In this document: in pieces, positions 1 through 51,551 of the stretch
Numbering within the stretch: the first letter of the stretch is position 1
Layout: each line of letters starts with the position of its first letter
Assembly: GCA_031290155.1 (NCBI GenBank)
Contig: JAITOB010000004.1
Location: 1 to 64,000 of the forward strand
Direction: 5' to 3'
Source of the DNA: Endomicrobium sp.
GTDB lineage: Bacteria; Elusimicrobiota; Endomicrobiia; Endomicrobiales; Endomicrobiaceae
DNA length: 64,000 nt
Position numbers and translations under genes: made by a program
The notes under the pieces: model-generated
Database searches by the model: none
The model's input: only the letters and a program-made list of their open reading frames with translations
Told to the model about the DNA's origin: nothing

Positions 1-141
1 GGAAGCGAAGCGGAAGCCAGCTCAGGCAAGGAAGAACAGACCAAAAGCTCGCACGGAAGTAAAGAAATAGCTCTTGGGGTATCCTGGAAAAAAAGGGACG
101 TCACAGGAGCGACGTCGAGCGAGAGTTAAAAAACAGGAACT
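1..141 (+). other. Leader of a foreign rRNA operon
   Basis: This stretch precedes the plus-strand 16S fragment and is much richer in G and C than anything else up to position 60000. It reads like a pre-16S leader, running straight into the 16S 5' end at about 142. It has no relation to the resident rRNA leader at 677-1230. I infer that it belongs to the same betaproteobacterial molecule as 142-440 and is not part of this chromosome. Confidence 0.6.
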
Positions 142-440
142 AAACTGAAGAGTTTGATCCTGGCTCAGATTGAACGCTGGCGGCATGCCTTACACATGCA
201 AGTCGAACGGCAGCGCGGGAGCAATCCTGGCGGCGAGTGGCGAACGGGTGAGTAAAACATCGGAACGTACCCAGAAGTGGGGGATAACGTAGCGAAAGTT
301 ACGCTAATACCGCATACCCTGTAAGCAGGAAAGCCGGGGACCGCAAGGCCTGGCGCTTATGGAGCGGCCGATGTCGGATTAGCTAGTTGGCGGGGTAAAA
401 GCCCACCAAGGCGACGATCCGTAGCGGGTCTGAGAGGACG
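142..440 (+). rRNA. 16S rRNA 5' fragment, betaproteobacterial type
   Basis: The fragment begins with the universal bacterial 16S start (AGAGTTTGATCCTGGCTCAG at 150-169) and runs through variable regions V1 and V2. The signature after the start (ATTGAACGCTGGCGGCATGC) and the V1-V2 text are of the Burkholderiales type as I know them. It stops abruptly at about 440, far short of the roughly 1500-base gene, where it meets the inverted resident 16S. Its base composition and phylogenetic flavour disagree with the rest of the window, so contamination or an amplification/assembly chimera is the likely explanation. A genuine horizontally acquired fragment is much less likely. Confidence 0.8.
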
Positions 441-676
<236 letters not shown>

Positions 677-4261: not shown

Positions 4262-5238
4262 CACCATATTGAAGATTTTTAATATAATTTTCCATAAACT
4301 TCCAATCTGGTTTTCCATTTTTATCTAATGGTAATAATAATTATGTAGCACGGATTCGCGGTTGATTAAATTTTCTACCATAAACATATTTATAATTACC
4401 TTTCATAAATATTGTTTGTAAAAATAAACTAATACACTTATTCAATGTGAATTTCGGTTTTAGTAATTCTACATGGTCTGATGCAGTATAATCTATAATC
4501 CTCTTCTTGATACGATACAAATCCTAAAATACAACACTATCAGCAACTAAAACATTACCGATTTTCAGTTTTATGATTATAAAAACCAGCGACACCATTA
4601 TTTGTGGCACGAATTGTCACTTATGGATAATCACCATATCCATAAGTTGTTTCTAAATCAATTAATTGTGCGGTAGTTATGCCAGATACATCAAAAATAT
4701 CACCAACCAACACTCCCCCCCCCCAGTTGCTATATTAAAATTATTTGTTGATTTGCTATTTGTTTTAACTGCACTGAATGTTATGTTTTTTTCAATTATA
4801 ATTTTTCATGTAGTCCCTAATCAGGAATTTTTACATTTTCTGATTTAGTCGGTAATATAATCTCTGTATTTTCTATATTTTCTTTTGTTATAGGTCTCCC
4901 ATAACTATATTTACAAGAATTTTCTCCATATAGTTTTTATAAATAAAGCTCGTTCTTTATTTAAAATGAAATCTCGTGGGATTAAAATCAACATATGGTC
5001 GCCCGTAGAAAATTCATAATCATGATAAAGTAGTTTCTATGTTAAAACATTCGCCGGTGCCATTTTTAAACCATAAAACCAGTTACTCCATATTTTTTCA
5101 GTGCGAGTAACATACGGGTAATTTCCGGATTCATACTCTCTATTTAAAACTTCAATAGAAATACTACCAACCCTTTTTTTATTATAAAGAGTTGATTCAT
5201 TTTGAATGATTGCCACAAAGAAGTATTTATATAACTAT
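4262..5238 (-). pseudogene. DNA specificity (HsdS-like) subunit remnant
   Basis: On the minus strand, directly downstream of the methylase remnant, frame-shifted pieces read as a target-recognition protein. They include a start-like segment with GDIFDVSG-type text near 4690, a body with YGDYP and IRATNNGVAGFYNHKT near 4560-4640, and a tail with LPLDKNGKPDWKFMENYI near 4280-4330. That tail is characteristic of S-like subunits associated with N6-adenine methylases. Multiple stops and shifts occur, and a run of ten cytosines (4715-4724) sits inside. It would have directed the adjacent methylase to its target site. It is now non-functional. Confidence 0.65.
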
Positions 5239-8465: not shown

Positions 8466-8492
8466 TTAGCACTGTAATATTGTGAGTGCCAG
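8466..8492 (+). promoter_or_regulatory. CIRCE operator (HrcA binding site)
   Basis: TTAGCACTG, nine bases, GAGTGCCAG. Seventeen of the eighteen bases in the two arms fit or nearly fit the known CIRCE consensus TTAGCACTC-N9-GAGTGCTAA; differences lie in the last base of the left arm and the last three of the right. It overlaps the expected transcription start, so bound HrcA would block the operon. This is autoregulation, since hrcA is the first gene. Confidence 0.85.
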
Positions 8493-8528
8493 AATAAGTT
8501 GAATGCTAATATAGTTTACGAGGATAAA

Positions 8529-9578
8529 ATGCGGCATATAGCATTAGAAGTTTTAAAAGAAAGAAAAACTAGAATATTAAGCGCAATTATACATCATCAT
8601 ATCAAGACAGGAAAACCTGTAGGGTCTGATGTTTTGATAGAAAAGTACAATATTTCTTTATCTCCGGCTGCCGTCAGAAATTTAATGGCAGAGCTTGAAG
8701 AAGACGGATATTTAACGCATCCTCATACTTCTGCAGGACGAATTCCTACTGATAAAGGCTACAGATCTTATGTGAATAATCTTGCCAAACTTCAAAGTTT
8801 TGCCATAAAAGAAGAAGAGAAGTTAAGAAAAGAGTATGAACAAAAACATAATGAAATAGAAACATTTCTTTCAGAAACTTCTCGTATTTTATCAGGCTTA
8901 TCCAAATATACAGGTTTTGTTACGGCGCCTAAGTCACAATATGATGAAATAAAAAATATTGAACTTATACAGATTTCAAACGCAGAACTTTTAGTTGTAT
9001 TGGTTACTCAAAGCGGTATGATAAAACATAAACAGATAGAAGCTTCTCTTTCTACAAGACAATTAAAAAAATTGAAATATTTTTTAAATGAAAAATTACG
9101 AGGAGTGTCGGTTGCGCAGGCAAACACTAGAATTAATACAGAAATAATAGATTTTAGACAAAATGAAGATGAGATTTTAAAAACTGCAGAAAAAATAAGT
9201 TATGTTTTTTATAATATACAGGACGATATTTATATAGACGGTACGTCAAATGTAGTGACCTTTCCGGATTTTAACGATTTTGAGCCGGTAAAGTCAATTA
9301 TAAAATTTAATGAAGATAAAGATGCATTTATAGAAATGATAAATAAAGATTTTAACAGCAGCGGAATAAATGTAAAAATAGGTTCAGAAAATACGCTTGA
9401 TGAATTTAAGGATTTAAGTATTATAACAACAGTTTATAAAAACGGCGAATGTGCGGTAGGCGTTTTGGGTATTATCGGACCCAAACGAATGGAATATGAA
9501 AGAATGATGTCTCTTGTAAATCACAGCGCAGAAATGTTAAACAGATTTTTTAAAGATAAAGACAGGCTAGGAGGTTAA
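8529..9578 (+). CDS. hrcA: Heat-inducible transcription repressor HrcA
   Basis: A winged-helix N-terminus (ILSAIIHHHIKTGKPVGSD, then SPAAVRNLMAELEEDGYL and HTSAGRIPTDKGYR) is diagnostic of HrcA. A GAF-like core and a dimerisation region follow. HrcA binds CIRCE operators and represses chaperone genes until stress titrates its own folding helpers. I choose the ATG at 8529, which has GAGGA four bases upstream. An earlier ATG at 8499 lies only seven bases after the CIRCE element and has no ribosome-binding site. The protein is 349 residues, normal for the family. It is first in hrcA-grpE-dnaK-dnaJ. Confidence 0.92.
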   Translation: MRHIALEVLKERKTRILSAIIHHHIKTGKPVGSDVLIEKYNISLSPAAVRNLMAELEEDGYLTHPHTSAGRIPTDKGYRSYVNNLAKLQSFAIKEEEKLRKEYEQKHNEIETFLSETSRILSGLSKYTGFVTAPKSQYDEIKNIELIQISNAELLVVLVTQSGMIKHKQIEASLSTRQLKKLKYFLNEKLRGVSVAQANTRINTEIIDFRQNEDEILKTAEKISYVFYNIQDDIYIDGTSNVVTFPDFNDFEPVKSIIKFNEDKDAFIEMINKDFNSSGINVKIGSENTLDEFKDLSIITTVYKNGECAVGVLGIIGPKRMEYERMMSLVNHSAEMLNRFFKDKDRLGG

Positions 9579-9579
9579 T

Positions 9580-10137
9580 TTGGAAAACAAAAAACATGAA
9601 ATTTTAGAGGAAGAGAAATATGAAAAACAAGGCTGCAATTGTAATGATGCCAGAGACGATAAAATCGCGGAACTTGAAATTTTAAAACAATCAGTTGAAG
9701 ACAAAAGTAAACAGGCGCAAGACTTTTATGACCAGCTTTTAAGACTTAAAGCTGATTTCGAAAATTACAGAAAACGTTCTGAAAAAGAAAAAAAAGATTA
9801 TTTAGAGTGGGGGAAAGAAAAAATTCTTCTTAAACAGCTTAGCATAGATGATATTTTACAGCAGGCTTTAAAAAGCGCAAAAGAAGGCAACAACATGGAA
9901 AGTATAATAATAGGCCTTGAATTGATAAACAAAGAGTTTTCAAAGATGTTAAAAGAGGAAGGGGTTGAAGAAATACAGTGTGAAAAGTTTGACCCGAATA
10001 TATGCGAAGCATTAGAACAAGTTGAGAGTGAAGCTGAAGATGAAACAATTTTGGAAGTTTACCAAAAAGGCTACAAAATAAACGGTAAACTTATAAGAAC
10101 CACTAAAGTTAAAGTAGCAAAAAATATAAAAAAATAA
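9580..10137 (+). CDS. grpE: Nucleotide exchange factor GrpE
   Basis: A 185-residue protein with an acidic, coiled-coil N-terminal half and the family core. The text LRLKADFENYRKRSEKEKKD leads the long helix, and the C-terminal beta-wing ends with YKINGKLIRTTKVKVAK. GrpE releases ADP from DnaK. Translation starts at TTG (9580), preceded by AGGAGGT, one base after the hrcA stop, so the two genes are coupled. No other start fits. Confidence 0.92.
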   Translation: MENKKHEILEEEKYEKQGCNCNDARDDKIAELEILKQSVEDKSKQAQDFYDQLLRLKADFENYRKRSEKEKKDYLEWGKEKILLKQLSIDDILQQALKSAKEGNNMESIIIGLELINKEFSKMLKEEGVEEIQCEKFDPNICEALEQVESEAEDETILEVYQKGYKINGKLIRTTKVKVAKNIKK

Positions 10138-10307: not shown

Positions 10308-10319
10308 GGGGGGGGAGTT
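10308..10319 (+). promoter_or_regulatory. Homopolymeric G ribosome-binding site of dnaK
   Basis: Eight consecutive guanines (10308-10315) plus AGTT sit immediately before the dnaK ATG, where a GGAGG-type site is expected. G runs can pair with the CCUCC of 16S rRNA through G-U wobble. A tract of this length is rare in such AT-rich DNA and prone to length change. Confidence 0.6.
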
Positions 10320-12194
10320 ATGGCAAAAATTATCGGTATAGATTTAGGAACATCAAATTCTGCGGCGGCTATTATGGAGGGTGGAAAAACCACTCTTGTT
10401 CCTTCAGCTGAAGGAACAACGTTGGGAGGCAAAGCATTCCCATCTTACGTTGCATTTACAAAGGACGGACAGCTTTTAGTAGGCGAGCCTGCAAGAAGAC
10501 AAGCAGTTACAAATCCGGAAGGAACAATAAGCGCTTTTAAAAGGAAAATGGGAACAGATTACAAATACACGCTAAGCGGTAAAGAATTTACTCCTCAGCA
10601 GCTTTCAGGGTTTATTTTACAAAAGATTAAAAAAGATGCAGAAGCTTATTTAGGCGAAACAATAACAAAAGCCGTTGTTACTGTTCCGGCGTATTTTAAC
10701 GACAACCAAAGACAGGCAACAAAAGATGCAGGCGCAATTGCCGGGCTTGAAGTTGTAAGGCTTGTCAACGAGCCTACGGCAGCGTCGCTTGCTTACGGCA
10801 TAGACAAAGTAGGAAAAGAACAGAGGATACTGGTTTTTGATCTTGGTGGCGGAACTTTAGATGTAACAATTATGGAAATGGGCGCAGAAGGAACATTTGA
10901 AGTTCTTTCAACTTCAGGCGATACGCAGCTTGGCGGAACCGATATGGATAACGTTTTAATTGATTATACAGCTGAAGATTTTAAAAAAGCAAACGGAATA
11001 GATTTAAGAAAAGATAAAATGGCAGTTCAGCGTTTAAAAGAAGCAGCTGAAAAAGCAAAAATAGAACTTTCAAATGTTTTAGAAACTGACATTAATCTTC
11101 CGTTTATCACAGCCGACGCCTCAGGTCCTAAGCATTTAACGATGAAGTTTACCAGGGCAACGCTTGAAAACCTTGTAAGGCCTATAGTTGAAAGATGTAA
11201 AACATCAATTGACCAGGTAATAAAAGATGCAAAGCTTACAGCTGAAACAATTACAAAAATAATTTTAGTTGGCGGACCTACCAGAATGCCTATAGTGCAA
11301 AAATTTGTTGAAGAACATGTAAGCAAAAAAGTAGAGCGCGGAATAGATCCTATGGAATGTGTATGTTTCGGAGCGGCTGTACAAGCGGCAGTATTGACAG
11401 GAGACGTAAAAGATATTCTTCTTTTAGACGTTACTCCTCTTACGCTAGGACTTGAAACTATGGGCGGCGTAAGAACTATTTTAATAGATAGAAATACAAC
11501 GGTTCCTGTAAAACGCTCTCAAATATTTTCAACTGCGGCAGATAATCAGCCAAGCGTTGAAATTAACGTTCTTCAAGGCGAGAGGCCGATGGCAAAAGAC
11601 AATTTGTCGCTTGGCAGATTTATGCTTGACGGGATACCGCCAGCCCCAAGAGGCATCCCTCAGATAGAAGTTACTTTTGATATAGACGCAAATGGTATTT
11701 TACATGTTTCAGCAAAAGATAAAGGAACCGGAAAAGAACAGTCTATTAAAATATCGTCAACAACAAAACTTTCAAAAGATGATATAGACAAATATGTAAA
11801 AGAAGCAGAGCGGTACGCTTCAGAAGACACAAAACACAAAGAAGAAATTGAAGCAAGAAACGAAGCAGATAATCTTGTTTATTCAGTTGAAAAAAGCTTA
11901 AAAGACCACGGCGATAAAATTTCAGCTGACGACAGACTTGCTATAGAACAAGCATTAACTTCTGCAAAAGAAGCATTAAAAGGAAACGATATTGCAGCAA
12001 TTAAATCAACAAAAGAAGCATTAACGACGGCATCCCATAAACTTGCTGAAGCCGTATATAAATCTTCCCAGACGCAAGTGGACCATGGAGCGGCGCAAGG
12101 AACGCAAGGTCAGCCTCAAGGAGATACGCATCAAAATAATAATGCCAGTGAAAAAGTAATTGACGCAGAAATTGTAGATGGAGATAAAAAATAA
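10320..12194 (+). CDS. dnaK: Chaperone DnaK (Hsp70)
   Basis: Full-length 624-residue Hsp70. The ATPase domain holds [13 protein letters not shown] (residues 6-18), [17 protein letters not shown] and [15 protein letters not shown]. The interdomain linker region [14 protein letters not shown] follows, then a substrate-binding beta domain with [13 protein letters not shown] helical lid ends in a Q/G/H-rich spacer and the conserved acidic tail [12 protein letters not shown]. It works in the cytoplasm with DnaJ and GrpE. It is separated from grpE by 182 bases, in which I see no second CIRCE. Its translation depends on the G8 ribosome-binding site. Confidence 0.97.
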
Positions 12195-12272: not shown

Positions 12273-12353
12273 ATATTTATCCGGCTGTAAAATATTTTTA
12301 TAGGAAATTTGCGGTATACCCGTTATAAGATTATTAATAAGGAACAAAACAAA

Positions 12354-13487
12354 ATGAAACGCGATTACTATGAAGTGCTCGGAGTTAGTAAAACCGCTGC
12401 TGCAGATGAAATCAAGTCAACTTATAGAAAGCTTGCTTTAAAATATCATCCGGATAAAAACCCGGACAACAAAGAAGCTGAAGAAAAATTCAAAGAGATA
12501 AACGAAGCCTATGAAGTGCTTTCCGACACACAGAAAAAACAACAATATGATACTTTTGGGCATAACAACATTAACGGAGGAAACCCTTTCGCCGGTCAAG
12601 GCAGCTATACACAACAATACAGCGGTGATTTTTCAAATATGGGAGATATCTTCGGCGATATTTTTGATGGCATTTTCAGCGGCACTTCTAACGGACGCGG
12701 AAGAGCTTCGCAAAGAAATGGCGAAGATTTACGTTATGATATAGAAGTTTCTTATCTTGACGCAATGAAAGGCAAGGAGATATCCATCGATATACCTAAA
12801 AAGGAAACTTGTTCTGTTTGCCATGGTACCGGCAGTAAAGACGGGGTGGTTCCTAAGCAGTGCGCAGCATGTAAAGGGAAAGGGCAAGTAAGATATTCTC
12901 AAGGTTTTTTCTCTTTCAGCCAAGAGTGTCCTCACTGTAAAGGCAAGGGAACTGTCATAAGCAGGCATTGTTATGAATGTAAAGGCGAGGGAACTGTAAA
13001 TAAAAGAAAAAATATTAAAGTTAAAATTCCTGCAGGAGTTGATGAAGGAACATCTTTAAAAGTTTCGGCTTCCGGCAATGCTGGCTCTAACGGCGCGCCG
13101 CCAGGAGATTTATATGTCGTAATACATATGAAACAAACCGAGGGATTTCAAAGAAACGGCGATGACTTGTATACGGAAATTGCTATTTCCTTTCCGCAGA
13201 CGGCAATGGGAATTGATTACAGCGTGCCTGTCTTAGAAGGGCAAGTAAAAGTAAAAATTCCGCCGTCAACACAACCCGGTACTATTTTAAGAATACGTGA
13301 GCAAGGATTTCCAAAACTTGGCAGAAAAAGCAGAGGAGATCTTTATATTAAAATAAATCTTTCTATGCCAAAACATATGACTGACGCGCAAAAAAGGGCG
13401 CTTTTTGAATATGCAAAATCTATGGGAGAAATTCCAAGAGCCGAACAATACCAAGGTGATAGTTTTTTTAAGAAAATTTTCAGGTAA
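12354..13487 (+). CDS. dnaJ: Co-chaperone DnaJ
   Basis: Full DnaJ architecture in 377 residues: J domain with the catalytic HPD tripeptide near residues 33-35, a glycine/phenylalanine-rich region, four zinc-binding CxxCxGxG repeats ([36 protein letters not shown]), and the C-terminal substrate-binding barrels. It delivers clients to DnaK and stimulates its ATPase. The ATG at 12354 preceded by AAGGA is chosen. An in-frame upstream start at 12309 would add 15 residues not seen in the family. It ends 20 bases from the convergent jag gene. Confidence 0.95.
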
Positions 13488-20043: not shown

Positions 20044-20405
20044 ATTTTTATAGAATTGCGGGGGGGGGAATATTTTTATTATTAATCATTTGGAACTTTA
20101 TTAAAAACGTATCATAACCAAGAAAAACAAATTATGCAAAAATAACTTCATTAAATTTATAAACGGTTATTTATTCTTAAAATATATATTTGCCAGTTTC
20201 ACAGAAACAATTTCATAGTTAACATCTTTTAGCTTAAATATATTCAATTAAACAATTGCTTAGAAAAAAACATTAGAAAAGTTTAATTAAAACAAATGAT
20301 CGCCAATACTTAAACACAATAAAAAATAACTTTGCTATATTTATAAATAAATACCGGCATAAATGATTGCTATTTAATATTATCGATGATTATATATCTT
20401 TTTAT
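20044..20405. other. Intergenic region with a G9 tract
   Basis: Convergent gap between the TPR remnant and pckG. It starts with nine consecutive guanines (20060-20068) that no longer precede an open gene, then continues as plain AT-rich sequence. I see no hairpin with a T tract that would qualify as a terminator, and no RNA gene. Confidence 0.5.
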
Positions 20406-25904: not shown

Positions 25905-26174
25905 TTATATCATCTTTCTAAGAGTTGCAGTAGGTTTAAATGAAACTTTTTTGCCAGGCGGGATATTAATAACTTCTCCGGTTTTAGGATTTCTGCCCCG
26001 TCTGGCTTTGCGTGATTTAGACCTGAAAGAACCAAGTCCTGAAAGAGAGATCACTCCGCCGTTCTTTAAAGTATCTTGAATTACTTTTATCAAACCCTTT
26101 ATTGCTTTGTTTGAATTGCATTGAGTTAATCCTGAAACCTCAGCAACCTGCTTAACAACATCAGGCTTTTTCAT
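25905..26174 (-). CDS. hup: HU family DNA-binding protein
   Basis: An 89-residue HU/IHF-type protein with the family signature GRNPKTGEVINIPPGKKVSF near residues 58-77 and the arm and helices expected for the HU dimer. It compacts and bends DNA. The ribosome-binding region is GGAA followed by eight guanines (26181-26188 on the plus strand as cytosines), six bases before the ATG, much like dnaK. A second HU-like gene lies at 57112-57372. Confidence 0.93.
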   Translation of the reverse strand: MKKPDVVKQVAEVSGLTQCNSNKAIKGLIKVIQDTLKNGGVISLSGLGSFRSKSRKARRGRNPKTGEVINIPPGKKVSFKPTATLRKMI

Positions 26175-26180
26175 CGATTA

Positions 26181-26188
26181 CCCCCCCC
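26181..26188 (-). promoter_or_regulatory. Homopolymeric G ribosome-binding site of the HU gene
   Basis: Eight guanines on the minus strand occupy the Shine-Dalgarno position of the HU gene, six bases before its ATG. This parallels the G8 tract before dnaK. Confidence 0.6.
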
Positions 26189-49638: not shown

Positions 49639-50472
49639 TTATACACCTGAATATGCATGAAAACCGCCATCTACCGCAATAACGCTGCCCGTAACAAATC
49701 CGGACGCCTCTTCATCGCAAAGCCACGAAAGAGTGCCAAATAAATCACGTGCTTCGCCAAAACGTTTCATCGGCGTATGACCAATAATTTTATGCGATCT
49801 TGGAGTAAGCGAGCCGTCCGGATTTGTCAAAAGCGTTTTATTCTGATTAGTTACCAAAAATCCAGGGGCAATAGCATTTACACGCACCCCCTGCTCTGCA
49901 AAATATACCGCAAGCCACTTAGTGAAATTATCGATTGCAGCTTTTGCCGCACTGTACCCGGGCACTTTAGTCAGCGGAGTTTGTGCCGACATACTTGAAA
50001 AATTTATAATTGTAGCGCCTTTTACGCCAATTAAACGTTTTGCAAAAATCTGCGTAACAAGAAATGTTCCAAAAAAATTTATTGAGAATACTTTTTCTAA
50101 ATCTTTTAAATTTAGATCAAAAAAAGAACAGATATCAAGATTATCTGCATCTTTAGGATTAAAAATTTCATTTGTGGTATTGGCACTAGGCATATTGCCT
50201 CCGGCGCCGTTTATAATAATATGGTACTGCCCAAAATCTTTATATATCTGTTCTTCTGTTTTGATAAGATTTTCCCTGTCAAGAACATCGCACCCATAAG
50301 GTTTTGCAGTGCCGCCGGCATCTGTAATTGCGCTTGCGATAGACTTAGCTCCTTCAAATCTTCTGCTTAAAACGGCTACTTTCACACCCCTGGAAGCCAA
50401 TTCTTTTGCATAAGCGCCAAGCAGCACGCCTCCAGCACCGGTTATAACAGCTACTTTTTTATTCCATTCCAT
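49639..50472 (-). CDS. uxuB: SDR-type D-mannonate (fructuronate) oxidoreductase
   Basis: A 277-residue short-chain dehydrogenase: the cofactor loop VAVITGAGGVLLGAYAKELA, the catalytic SxnYxxxK in FSSMSAQTPLTKVPGYSAAK, and the C-terminal GSVIAVDGGFHAY. Its place between uxaC and uxuA and its resemblance to SDR mannonate oxidoreductases (the YjmF type rather than the long-chain UxuB of E. coli) indicate reduction of fructuronate to mannonate. The start overlaps the uxuA 3' end by 22 bases and is preceded by AAAAGGGGGGCAATCTTT, another G-run ribosome-binding site. Confidence 0.85.
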   Translation of the reverse strand: MEWNKKVAVITGAGGVLLGAYAKELASRGVKVAVLSRRFEGAKSIASAITDAGGTAKPYGCDVLDRENLIKTEEQIYKDFGQYHIIINGAGGNMPSANTTNEIFNPKDADNLDICSFFDLNLKDLEKVFSINFFGTFLVTQIFAKRLIGVKGATIINFSSMSAQTPLTKVPGYSAAKAAIDNFTKWLAVYFAEQGVRVNAIAPGFLVTNQNKTLLTNPDGSLTPRSHKIIGHTPMKRFGEARDLFGTLSWLCDEEASGFVTGSVIAVDGGFHAYSGV

Positions 50473-51551
50473 AAAGATTGCCCCCCTTTTGTATATTTTT
50501 TAAAAGCATCCCATAATCCCCAGATATACATTATACCGAGTGATCTGTCATATAACCCGTATCCGGGTCGAGGTTTTTCATCCCATATATGCCTGCCATG
50601 ATCCGGACGGACATAATACTTATAACCGACATCAAAATATGCCTTTACAATTTCTGCTATGTCAAGAGAACCGTCAGAGGTTTTATGAGAAGTTTCTGCA
50701 AAATCACCATTTTCAAAACATCTTATATTGCGTATATGCGCAAAATATATTCTGCCACCAAATTCACGGACAATACCTGGGATATTATTTTTTGTACAAG
50801 CTCCCAGAGAACCGCTGCATAATGTAAGCCCGTTAGAAGGATTATCAACAAGGCTTAAAAATTTTTTTATATTATCTCTGCTGGTTATTATGCGCGGCAG
50901 ACCAAATATATTCCAAGGTGGATCATCAGGGTGTATTGCCATTTTTATTCCGCTTTCCTGTGCAACGGGAATAATTTCCTCAAGAAAATACTTAAGATTT
51001 TCCCAAAGTTTGTCTTCTTTAACATTTTCATAAGCTTTGAAAAGTTCTTTTATTTTTGAAAGTCTTTCCGGTTCCCAGCCAGGCATAGTTAAAAGACCTT
51101 CTTGTTTTGACATTTGTTCCAAAAATTCGACTGGATTTATACTATCTGCTTTGGCTTTTTCATAAAAAAGCGTCGTAGAACCGTCAGGCTGAGGTTTATA
51201 TAAATCGGTACGCGTCCAGTCAAAAACAGGCATAAAGTTATAACATACAACTTTTACGCCTGCATTACCAAGATTTTTAAGAGTTGTTTTATAATTCTCT
51301 ATATATATTTTTCGTGAAGGAAGTCCAAGTTTAATATCTTCATGTACGTTAACGCTTTCTACGACGTCAATGTTAAAATTATACTTCTGAGCTTGCGCTT
51401 TAACTTCCTCAATACGCTCAAGCGGCCAACATTCTCCCGCGGGGATATCATGCAATGCCCATACTATTCCGCTTACATCGGGAATCTGCCTTATATGTCT
51501 CAGGGGGATAGGATCAAGGTTTTCGCCATACCATCTAAATGTCATTTTCAT
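50451..51551 (-). CDS. uxuA: Mannonate dehydratase
   Basis: A 366-residue UxuA: MTFRWYGENLDPIPLRHIRQ, PDVSGIVWALHDIPAGECW, then metal-binding text IKMAIHPDDPPWNIFGLPRI and the C-terminal HKTSDGSLDIAEIVKAY and VRPDHGRHIWDEKPRPGYGL. It removes water from D-mannonate to give 2-keto-3-deoxygluconate. It lies three bases downstream of kdgK. Confidence 0.96.
   Translation of the reverse strand: MKMTFRWYGENLDPIPLRHIRQIPDVSGIVWALHDIPAGECWPLERIEEVKAQAQKYNFNIDVVESVNVHEDIKLGLPSRKIYIENYKTTLKNLGNAGVKVVCYNFMPVFDWTRTDLYKPQPDGSTTLFYEKAKADSINPVEFLEQMSKQEGLLTMPGWEPERLSKIKELFKAYENVKEDKLWENLKYFLEEIIPVAQESGIKMAIHPDDPPWNIFGLPRIITSRDNIKKFLSLVDNPSNGLTLCSGSLGACTKNNIPGIVREFGGRIYFAHIRNIRCFENGDFAETSHKTSDGSLDIAEIVKAYFDVGYKYYVRPDHGRHIWDEKPRPGYGLYDRSLGIMYIWGLWDAFKKYTKGGQSLWNGIKK

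Follow-up and report, generated by a model that had tools for sequence, protein, structure and literature searches.

MutS and MutL normally correct slippage in mononucleotide runs, and their loss in bacteria leads to microsatellite (homopolymer) instability. Campylobacter, Helicobacter and Neisseria have poly-G contingency loci, in which the runs are mostly found in genes with surface or modification roles and switch them. Related cases include Bifidobacterium, where pili are reportedly switched by an intragenic G tract (PMC9187656), and espR of Mycobacterium tuberculosis, whose translation is reported to rise, via RNA folding, when a homopolymer in the 5'UTR gains one G (PMC11898584). In Blochmannia, poly-A/T slippage and homopolymer indels in genes are reported (PMC3017870).

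The DNA analyzed here is a 64-kb window from the genome of a member of Endomicrobium (Elusimicrobiota), a termite-gut group; the closest named relatives of its DnaK are from Endomicrobium MAGs. The assembly (hereafter G000) is a draft of 1.113 Mb in 36 contigs and is 85% complete. Similar to the described cases of MutS/MutL loss, G000 is without intact mutS and mutL and has an excess of long mononucleotide runs in both dead and live DNA; it differs from them in that the runs consist of G in an AT-rich endosymbiont and show peaks at lengths of 8 and 9. The G runs resemble those of Campylobacter, Helicobacter and Neisseria in reaching at least eight bases, with a mode near 8-9, but they are found in dead genes, glycine-coding stretches and housekeeping Shine-Dalgarno sites, and neither the dnaK nor the HU site, the two start sites that we followed through the genus, is conserved as G8. 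With Blochmannia, G000 shares a reduced, insect-associated genome and homopolymer indels in genes; whereas the A/T runs there reportedly follow base composition (PMC3017870), the G runs of G000 exceed it. Finally, the G8 runs at gene starts occupy the same place as a canonical GGAGG Shine-Dalgarno sequence and have the same CCUCC pairing partner, but each is a homopolymer with one G-U pair and several equivalent registers.

In the window, eight consecutive Gs form the Shine-Dalgarno site of dnaK (10308..10315, plus strand), followed by AGTT and the ATG at 10320, which leaves a gap of 4 bases. The gene itself (10320..12194, plus strand) encodes 624 aa and matches TIGR02350 (DnaK) and HSP70. A second G8 (26181..26188, minus strand, thus C8 on the plus strand) is the Shine-Dalgarno site of an HU-family DNA-binding protein gene, 6 bases upstream of the ATG of an 89-aa frame at 25905..26174 (minus strand; open reading frame plus family match). 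A shorter run, G6 (50481..50486, minus strand), lies 8 bases upstream of the ATG of a D-mannonate (fructuronate) oxidoreductase gene of SDR type (49639..50472, minus strand; matches NF006132). The initial annotation had placed G8 in the Shine-Dalgarno position of dnaK and of HU and six Gs at the fructuronate reductase gene, and all three placements hold. Its remark that A9-style tracts are common in this DNA was overstated: A/T runs of at least nine number six in the window (one of A, five of T) and G/C runs of at least nine number two. Four separate G/C runs reach at least eight bases. They yield seven overlapping matches to GGGGGGGG; 100 dinucleotide shuffles of the window averaged 0.24 matches, and none of them reached seven. 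The two longest, a G10 (4715..4724, minus strand; C10 on the plus strand) where every reading frame is broken and a G9 (20060..20068, plus strand) that follows a TPR-repeat ORF fragment and is not at a start, are both without a recognized intact gene, and G runs are therefore not specific to ribosome-binding sites.

The dnaK gene is embedded in a cluster whose other members were assigned from open reading frame and family match: hrcA, encoding the heat-shock repressor (8499..9578), grpE (9580..10137) and dnaJ (12309..13487), all on the plus strand. Just upstream of hrcA is a CIRCE-like inverted repeat (8466..8492, plus strand) with three mismatches to the consensus, where 0.01 such repeats would be expected by chance. 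The repeat and its position suggest that HrcA controls the hrcA-grpE-dnaK-dnaJ cluster.

Across the whole G000 assembly there are 42 runs of G8 or longer, each of which we examined in context. Exact counts are 10 for G7, 20 for G8, 16 for G9 and six for lengths of 10-13, a spectrum that drops to G7, then climbs at G8-G9, and is not the product of base composition. A 503-kb sample of G000 contains 97 G5, 19 G6 and 7 G7 runs; its stretches were partly picked for holding G8, and for G7 and longer only the whole-genome counts should be used. Four of the 42 long runs are at recognized gene starts: dnaK (gap 4), HU (gap 6), ribH (gap 1) and rpmB (gap 10), the last being a 61-aa ORF that, by eye, we take to encode ribosomal protein L28. 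Another four lie in frame within intact genes, namely nspC, ftsA, adhE and mraY, and the remaining 34 are in fragments, spacers or 5' regions. One G12 run is situated 71 bases upstream of an Omp85 ORF. With 32 of the 42 tracts covered by a Pfam scan of ORF pieces, the four intact coding cases are in frame, and we rejected the idea that the tracts act as frame switches in live genes. The ftsA and mraY genes are essential; their in-frame G8 runs are at L121 14629 and L022 1501, respectively, positions at which slippage by a single base would abolish the protein, and the ftsA run encodes glycines of what is presumably a conserved glycine motif. The cases at CpXC, S8 peptidase, N6-methylase, AcrB, IGPS and CinA look like fragments, with short ORFs in several frames, and were not retained. 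We also rejected nrdD (anaerobic ribonucleotide reductase, L139 1394-2409) as a start-site case: the gene has several frame breaks, its G8 is within the coding part, and it is an apparent pseudogene.

By a mechanical criterion (an ATG within 13 bases that opens a frame of at least 40 aa), long G runs show no special enrichment at gene starts: the random baseline is 5.65%, and the 4/42 long runs at starts are not above it (P 0.21). Counting recognized starts only, about 0.24 of the 42 would be expected (≈417 chosen starts, with 14 gap lengths permitted, on both strands of 503,055 bases). The share at starts is the same for short runs, 12/116 for G5-G6, and on the baseline and this equal share we rejected a special enrichment of long runs.

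To place the dnaK and HU sites in an evolutionary context, we compared them across the genus. The search covered 41 genomes, 40 of which have a dnaK match, and start-site loci were examined in 30. A run of G5 or more is present at 16 of these 30 dnaK sites and a GGAGG-like sequence at the other 14; G6 occurs in G023, and G8 in G000 and G013 only. On the dnaK tree, the site changes between a G run and a GGAGG-like sequence at least nine times, with G000 placed far from G013. For HU, 17 of the 19 loci examined are readable (those of G026 and G016 are unplaceable, and that of G024 was found 500 bases off the expected place), with G8 in G000 only, G6 in G021, and GGAGG-like or weaker sequences in the others. 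G8 is thus not kept at the same gene in relatives, being found at 2/30 dnaK loci and 1/17 readable HU loci. The comparison corroborates the reading of the run as the Shine-Dalgarno position, derived from an ordinary GGAGG-type site. Variation in length by slippage-like steps, as the initial annotation envisaged, is seen between species, with GGAGG, G5, G6 and G8 all present among dnaK relatives. What it had listed as counting against a switch was found in part, in that most G runs are not at starts and relatives with GGAGG-type dnaK sites are as frequent as stated above. The most direct comparison comes from the sister pair G005 and G013, whose dnaK genes are 96% identical: the former reads ACTATA-G5-ATTAT-ATG and the latter ACTATA-G8-ATTAT-ATG. 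As read from these two sequences, three Gs have been gained or lost at a constant distance to the ATG.

Both G8 sites have the attributes of a Shine-Dalgarno sequence, being purine-rich and a few bases before the start (gap 4 for dnaK, gap 6 for HU), with predicted pairing to the 16S tail. The predicted duplex energies are −11.2 kcal/mol for the dnaK G8 and −12.9 kcal/mol for the HU G8. In the modeled duplexes, poly-G has one G-U pair with CCUCC and can pair in several registers. Computed for the dnaK site, the energy is −9.3 kcal/mol for G5, −10.4 for G6, −11.0 for G7, −11.2 for both G8 and G9, and −11.3 for G10-G13; the GGAGG dnaK site of G024 has a predicted value of −10.3 kcal/mol, so that G8 is better by 0.9 kcal/mol. 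The predicted fold of the dnaK start region is little altered from G5 to G12, with a paired probability of the ATG of 0.82-0.72, and the site is predicted to be nearly indifferent to run length above G6. With the site made up of the run, slippage would shift the upstream DNA and the distance to the ATG would stay the same. The proposal that a change of length would alter spacing is not supported: the 3' edge of the run is fixed, G005 (G5) and G013 (G8) share the five bases before the ATG, and predicted pairing is flat from G7. These pairing estimates rest on the usual CCUCC tail, as the 3' end of the 16S rRNA of G000 was not found in its assembly. The normal tail, TGGATCACCTCCTTT, is present in 8 of the 41 genus genomes searched and was not found in G000. 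A 16S tail co-evolved to fit poly-G is not supported by this distribution.

We sought the MutS N-terminal domain in the 41 genomes, and 28 of them carry it within an open frame of 548-912 aa. The G000 domain is split over two short frames, and what is left is a frameshifted stub of ≈130 codons. The locus consists of miaB, a lytic-transglycosylase-like gene, the mutS stub (L206 2557-2945) and then directly miaA, where the gene order in relatives is miaB-slt-mutS-mutL-miaA-mviN; the names miaB, slt, miaA and mviN are ones we take from our own reading of the sequences. MutL, matched in 29 of the 41 genomes, has no match in the G000 assembly. Judged by gene order, mutL has been deleted from the spot of the mutS remnant in G000, with the flanking genes still in place. 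Other genomes show related patterns: G011 retains no more than a weak trace of mutS between miaB and miaA and lacks mutL beside miaA, mutL is likewise absent before miaA in G031 (2.7 kb) and G010 (1.6 kb), and G062 has mutL with no mutS within the adjoining 4.4 kb. By its gene content, G000 is mismatch-repair deficient, having lost mutS and mutL, and on the same grounds such losses have occurred several times in Endomicrobium. Nothing in the literature searched describes repeated loss of mutS/mutL together with a G-run excess in this genus, and the main text of a 2024 Endomicrobia genome paper (PMC11257099) has no mention of mutS, mismatch, DNA repair, pseudogen-, homopolymer or Shine-Dalgarno.

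Repair loss is associated with a high density of G8-G9 runs. Among the five genomes with supported loss (G000, G031, G010, G011 and G062), G8 and G9 runs together number 32.3 per Mb in G000 and, in decreasing order, 32.1, 30.0, 23.0 and 21.2 per Mb in the other four. The 28 genomes with intact mutS have a median of 3.65 (Mann-Whitney P 0.0007). Rates outside G000 use rounded genome sizes. When the dnaK tree is taken into account (26 tips, 4 lost), the association has a P of 0.0026 at the ML lambda of 0.28 and of 0.018 at lambda 1. Earlier, looser labels, with 12 mutS-lacking and 28 intact genomes, gave P 0.0024, and a sign test under these labels on five independent pairs found 2.9 the expected way and 0 opposite, a number too small for significance. 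Eight uncertain genomes were left out of the comparison of five with 28: G003 (32.5 per Mb), G015 (20), G006 (17.1), G060 (10.9), G021 (7.5), G063 (4.3), G012 (3.3) and G020 (0). A rate of at least 21 per Mb is reached by 3/28 genomes with intact mutS, and the run-rich genomes of this class are G061 (30), G026 (23.8), G013 (23.0), G001 (20) and G064 (16.4), with G013 also being one of the two genomes with G8 at dnaK. These exceptions, above all G061, G026 and G013, indicate that repair loss is not the sole cause and that another factor also acts. G061 also holds 30 exact G7 runs.

Taken together, we consider it likely that the G8 is a working Shine-Dalgarno site turned homopolymer by mutation, mainly through repair loss and slippage, and that it is length-tolerant and not a switch. 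On the genus comparison, an ancestral GGAGG-type site became GGGGG by an A-to-G change, with CCUCC pairing kept through one G-U pair, and short G runs then lengthened to six and later to eight. The correctors of mononucleotide slippage, mutS and mutL, have been lost from G000. Repair-loss genomes carry many G8-G9 runs, an association that is statistical and from which we infer causation; those of G000 are divided among dead genes, stretches that encode glycine, and Shine-Dalgarno sites. Length changes are predicted to leave the distance to the ATG and the pairing energy almost constant, and the site would thus tolerate slippage.

The initial annotation had proposed a possible phase-variable or tunable switch, in which slippage of G8 alters the spacing of the ribosome-binding site and hence the amounts of DnaK and HU. 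We regard such a switch as highly improbable, given that the 3' edge of the run is fixed relative to the ATG in G005 and G013, that predicted pairing is flat from G7 up and the start-region fold little changed from G5 to G12, and that G8 is conserved at so few dnaK and readable HU loci. The genes concerned are, moreover, housekeeping genes, and dnaK is already within the hrcA cluster with its CIRCE-like site. These points outweigh the facts that runs of 8-9 Gs are slippage-prone and that, with neither mutS nor mutL intact in G000, the G8 is, as in contingency loci, a repeat long enough to slip often. Homopolymers can tune translation in other systems, and because the espR 5'UTR run reportedly affects translation through folding (PMC11898584), some room is left for a tuning role here. 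Less improbable, although still unlikely, is selection for a stronger ribosome-binding site, in which several pairing registers favor highly expressed genes and slippage only supplied the variants. The start-site genes are dnaK, HU, ribH and rpmB, three of which are typically highly expressed, and the G8 advantage over the G024 GGAGG site is predicted to be favorable; further, every one of the eight runs in intact genes has a length of exactly 8, compared with 12 of the 34 others (Fisher P 0.001, with classes set after looking at the data). Such selection is difficult to reconcile with the retention of GGAGG or G5 at dnaK and GGAGG-like sites at HU in most congeners, with long runs being at starts no oftener than short ones, and with the frequency of equal-length runs in dead DNA.

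The least probable reading, to which we give very little credence, is that the homopolymer lengths are assembly or sequencing errors. The assembly is a fragmented draft, and database G-run lengths can reportedly be wrong (PMC9187656), but random length error does not fit with eight intact genes that carry G8, including four in which the run is in frame within the coding sequence, and the excess is seen again in other Endomicrobium genomes, where it tracks mutS status. A further reading concerns consequences: dozens of unselected, hypermutable G8-G9 runs could make cells within one host protist differ in the frame or translation of core genes, as an accidental contingency system adding to gene decay. 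The runs concerned would be those in frame in ftsA and mraY and those at the starts of dnaK, HU, ribH and rpmB; we hold this to be rather doubtful. Under the preferred explanation, that of a length-tolerant site shaped by repair loss and slippage, a poly-G ribosome-binding site would become a readable mark of repair loss. Repeated mutS/mutL loss, with G8-G9 abundance following it, makes Endomicrobium a natural experiment on how regulatory sites are remodeled, and gene decay is accelerated, once mismatch repair is lost. Our results also suggest that a homopolymer Shine-Dalgarno site may tolerate indels, which is a caution against calling every G run near a start a switch.

Several smaller observations accompany these data. 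By deposited strand, 28 of the 42 long runs of G000 read as G and 14 as C. At the end of the contig, 16S rRNA matches are present on both strands (window 189-472 plus, 1-675 minus); window positions 1-675 are probably a chimeric assembly end, and a G6 at 545-550 falls inside this 16S-matching stretch. Elsewhere in G000, a G8 is situated seven bases upstream of the ATG of a small ORF (L001 924-1100; C2:924) that breaks after nine codons at an A run, suggesting that A runs slip as well.
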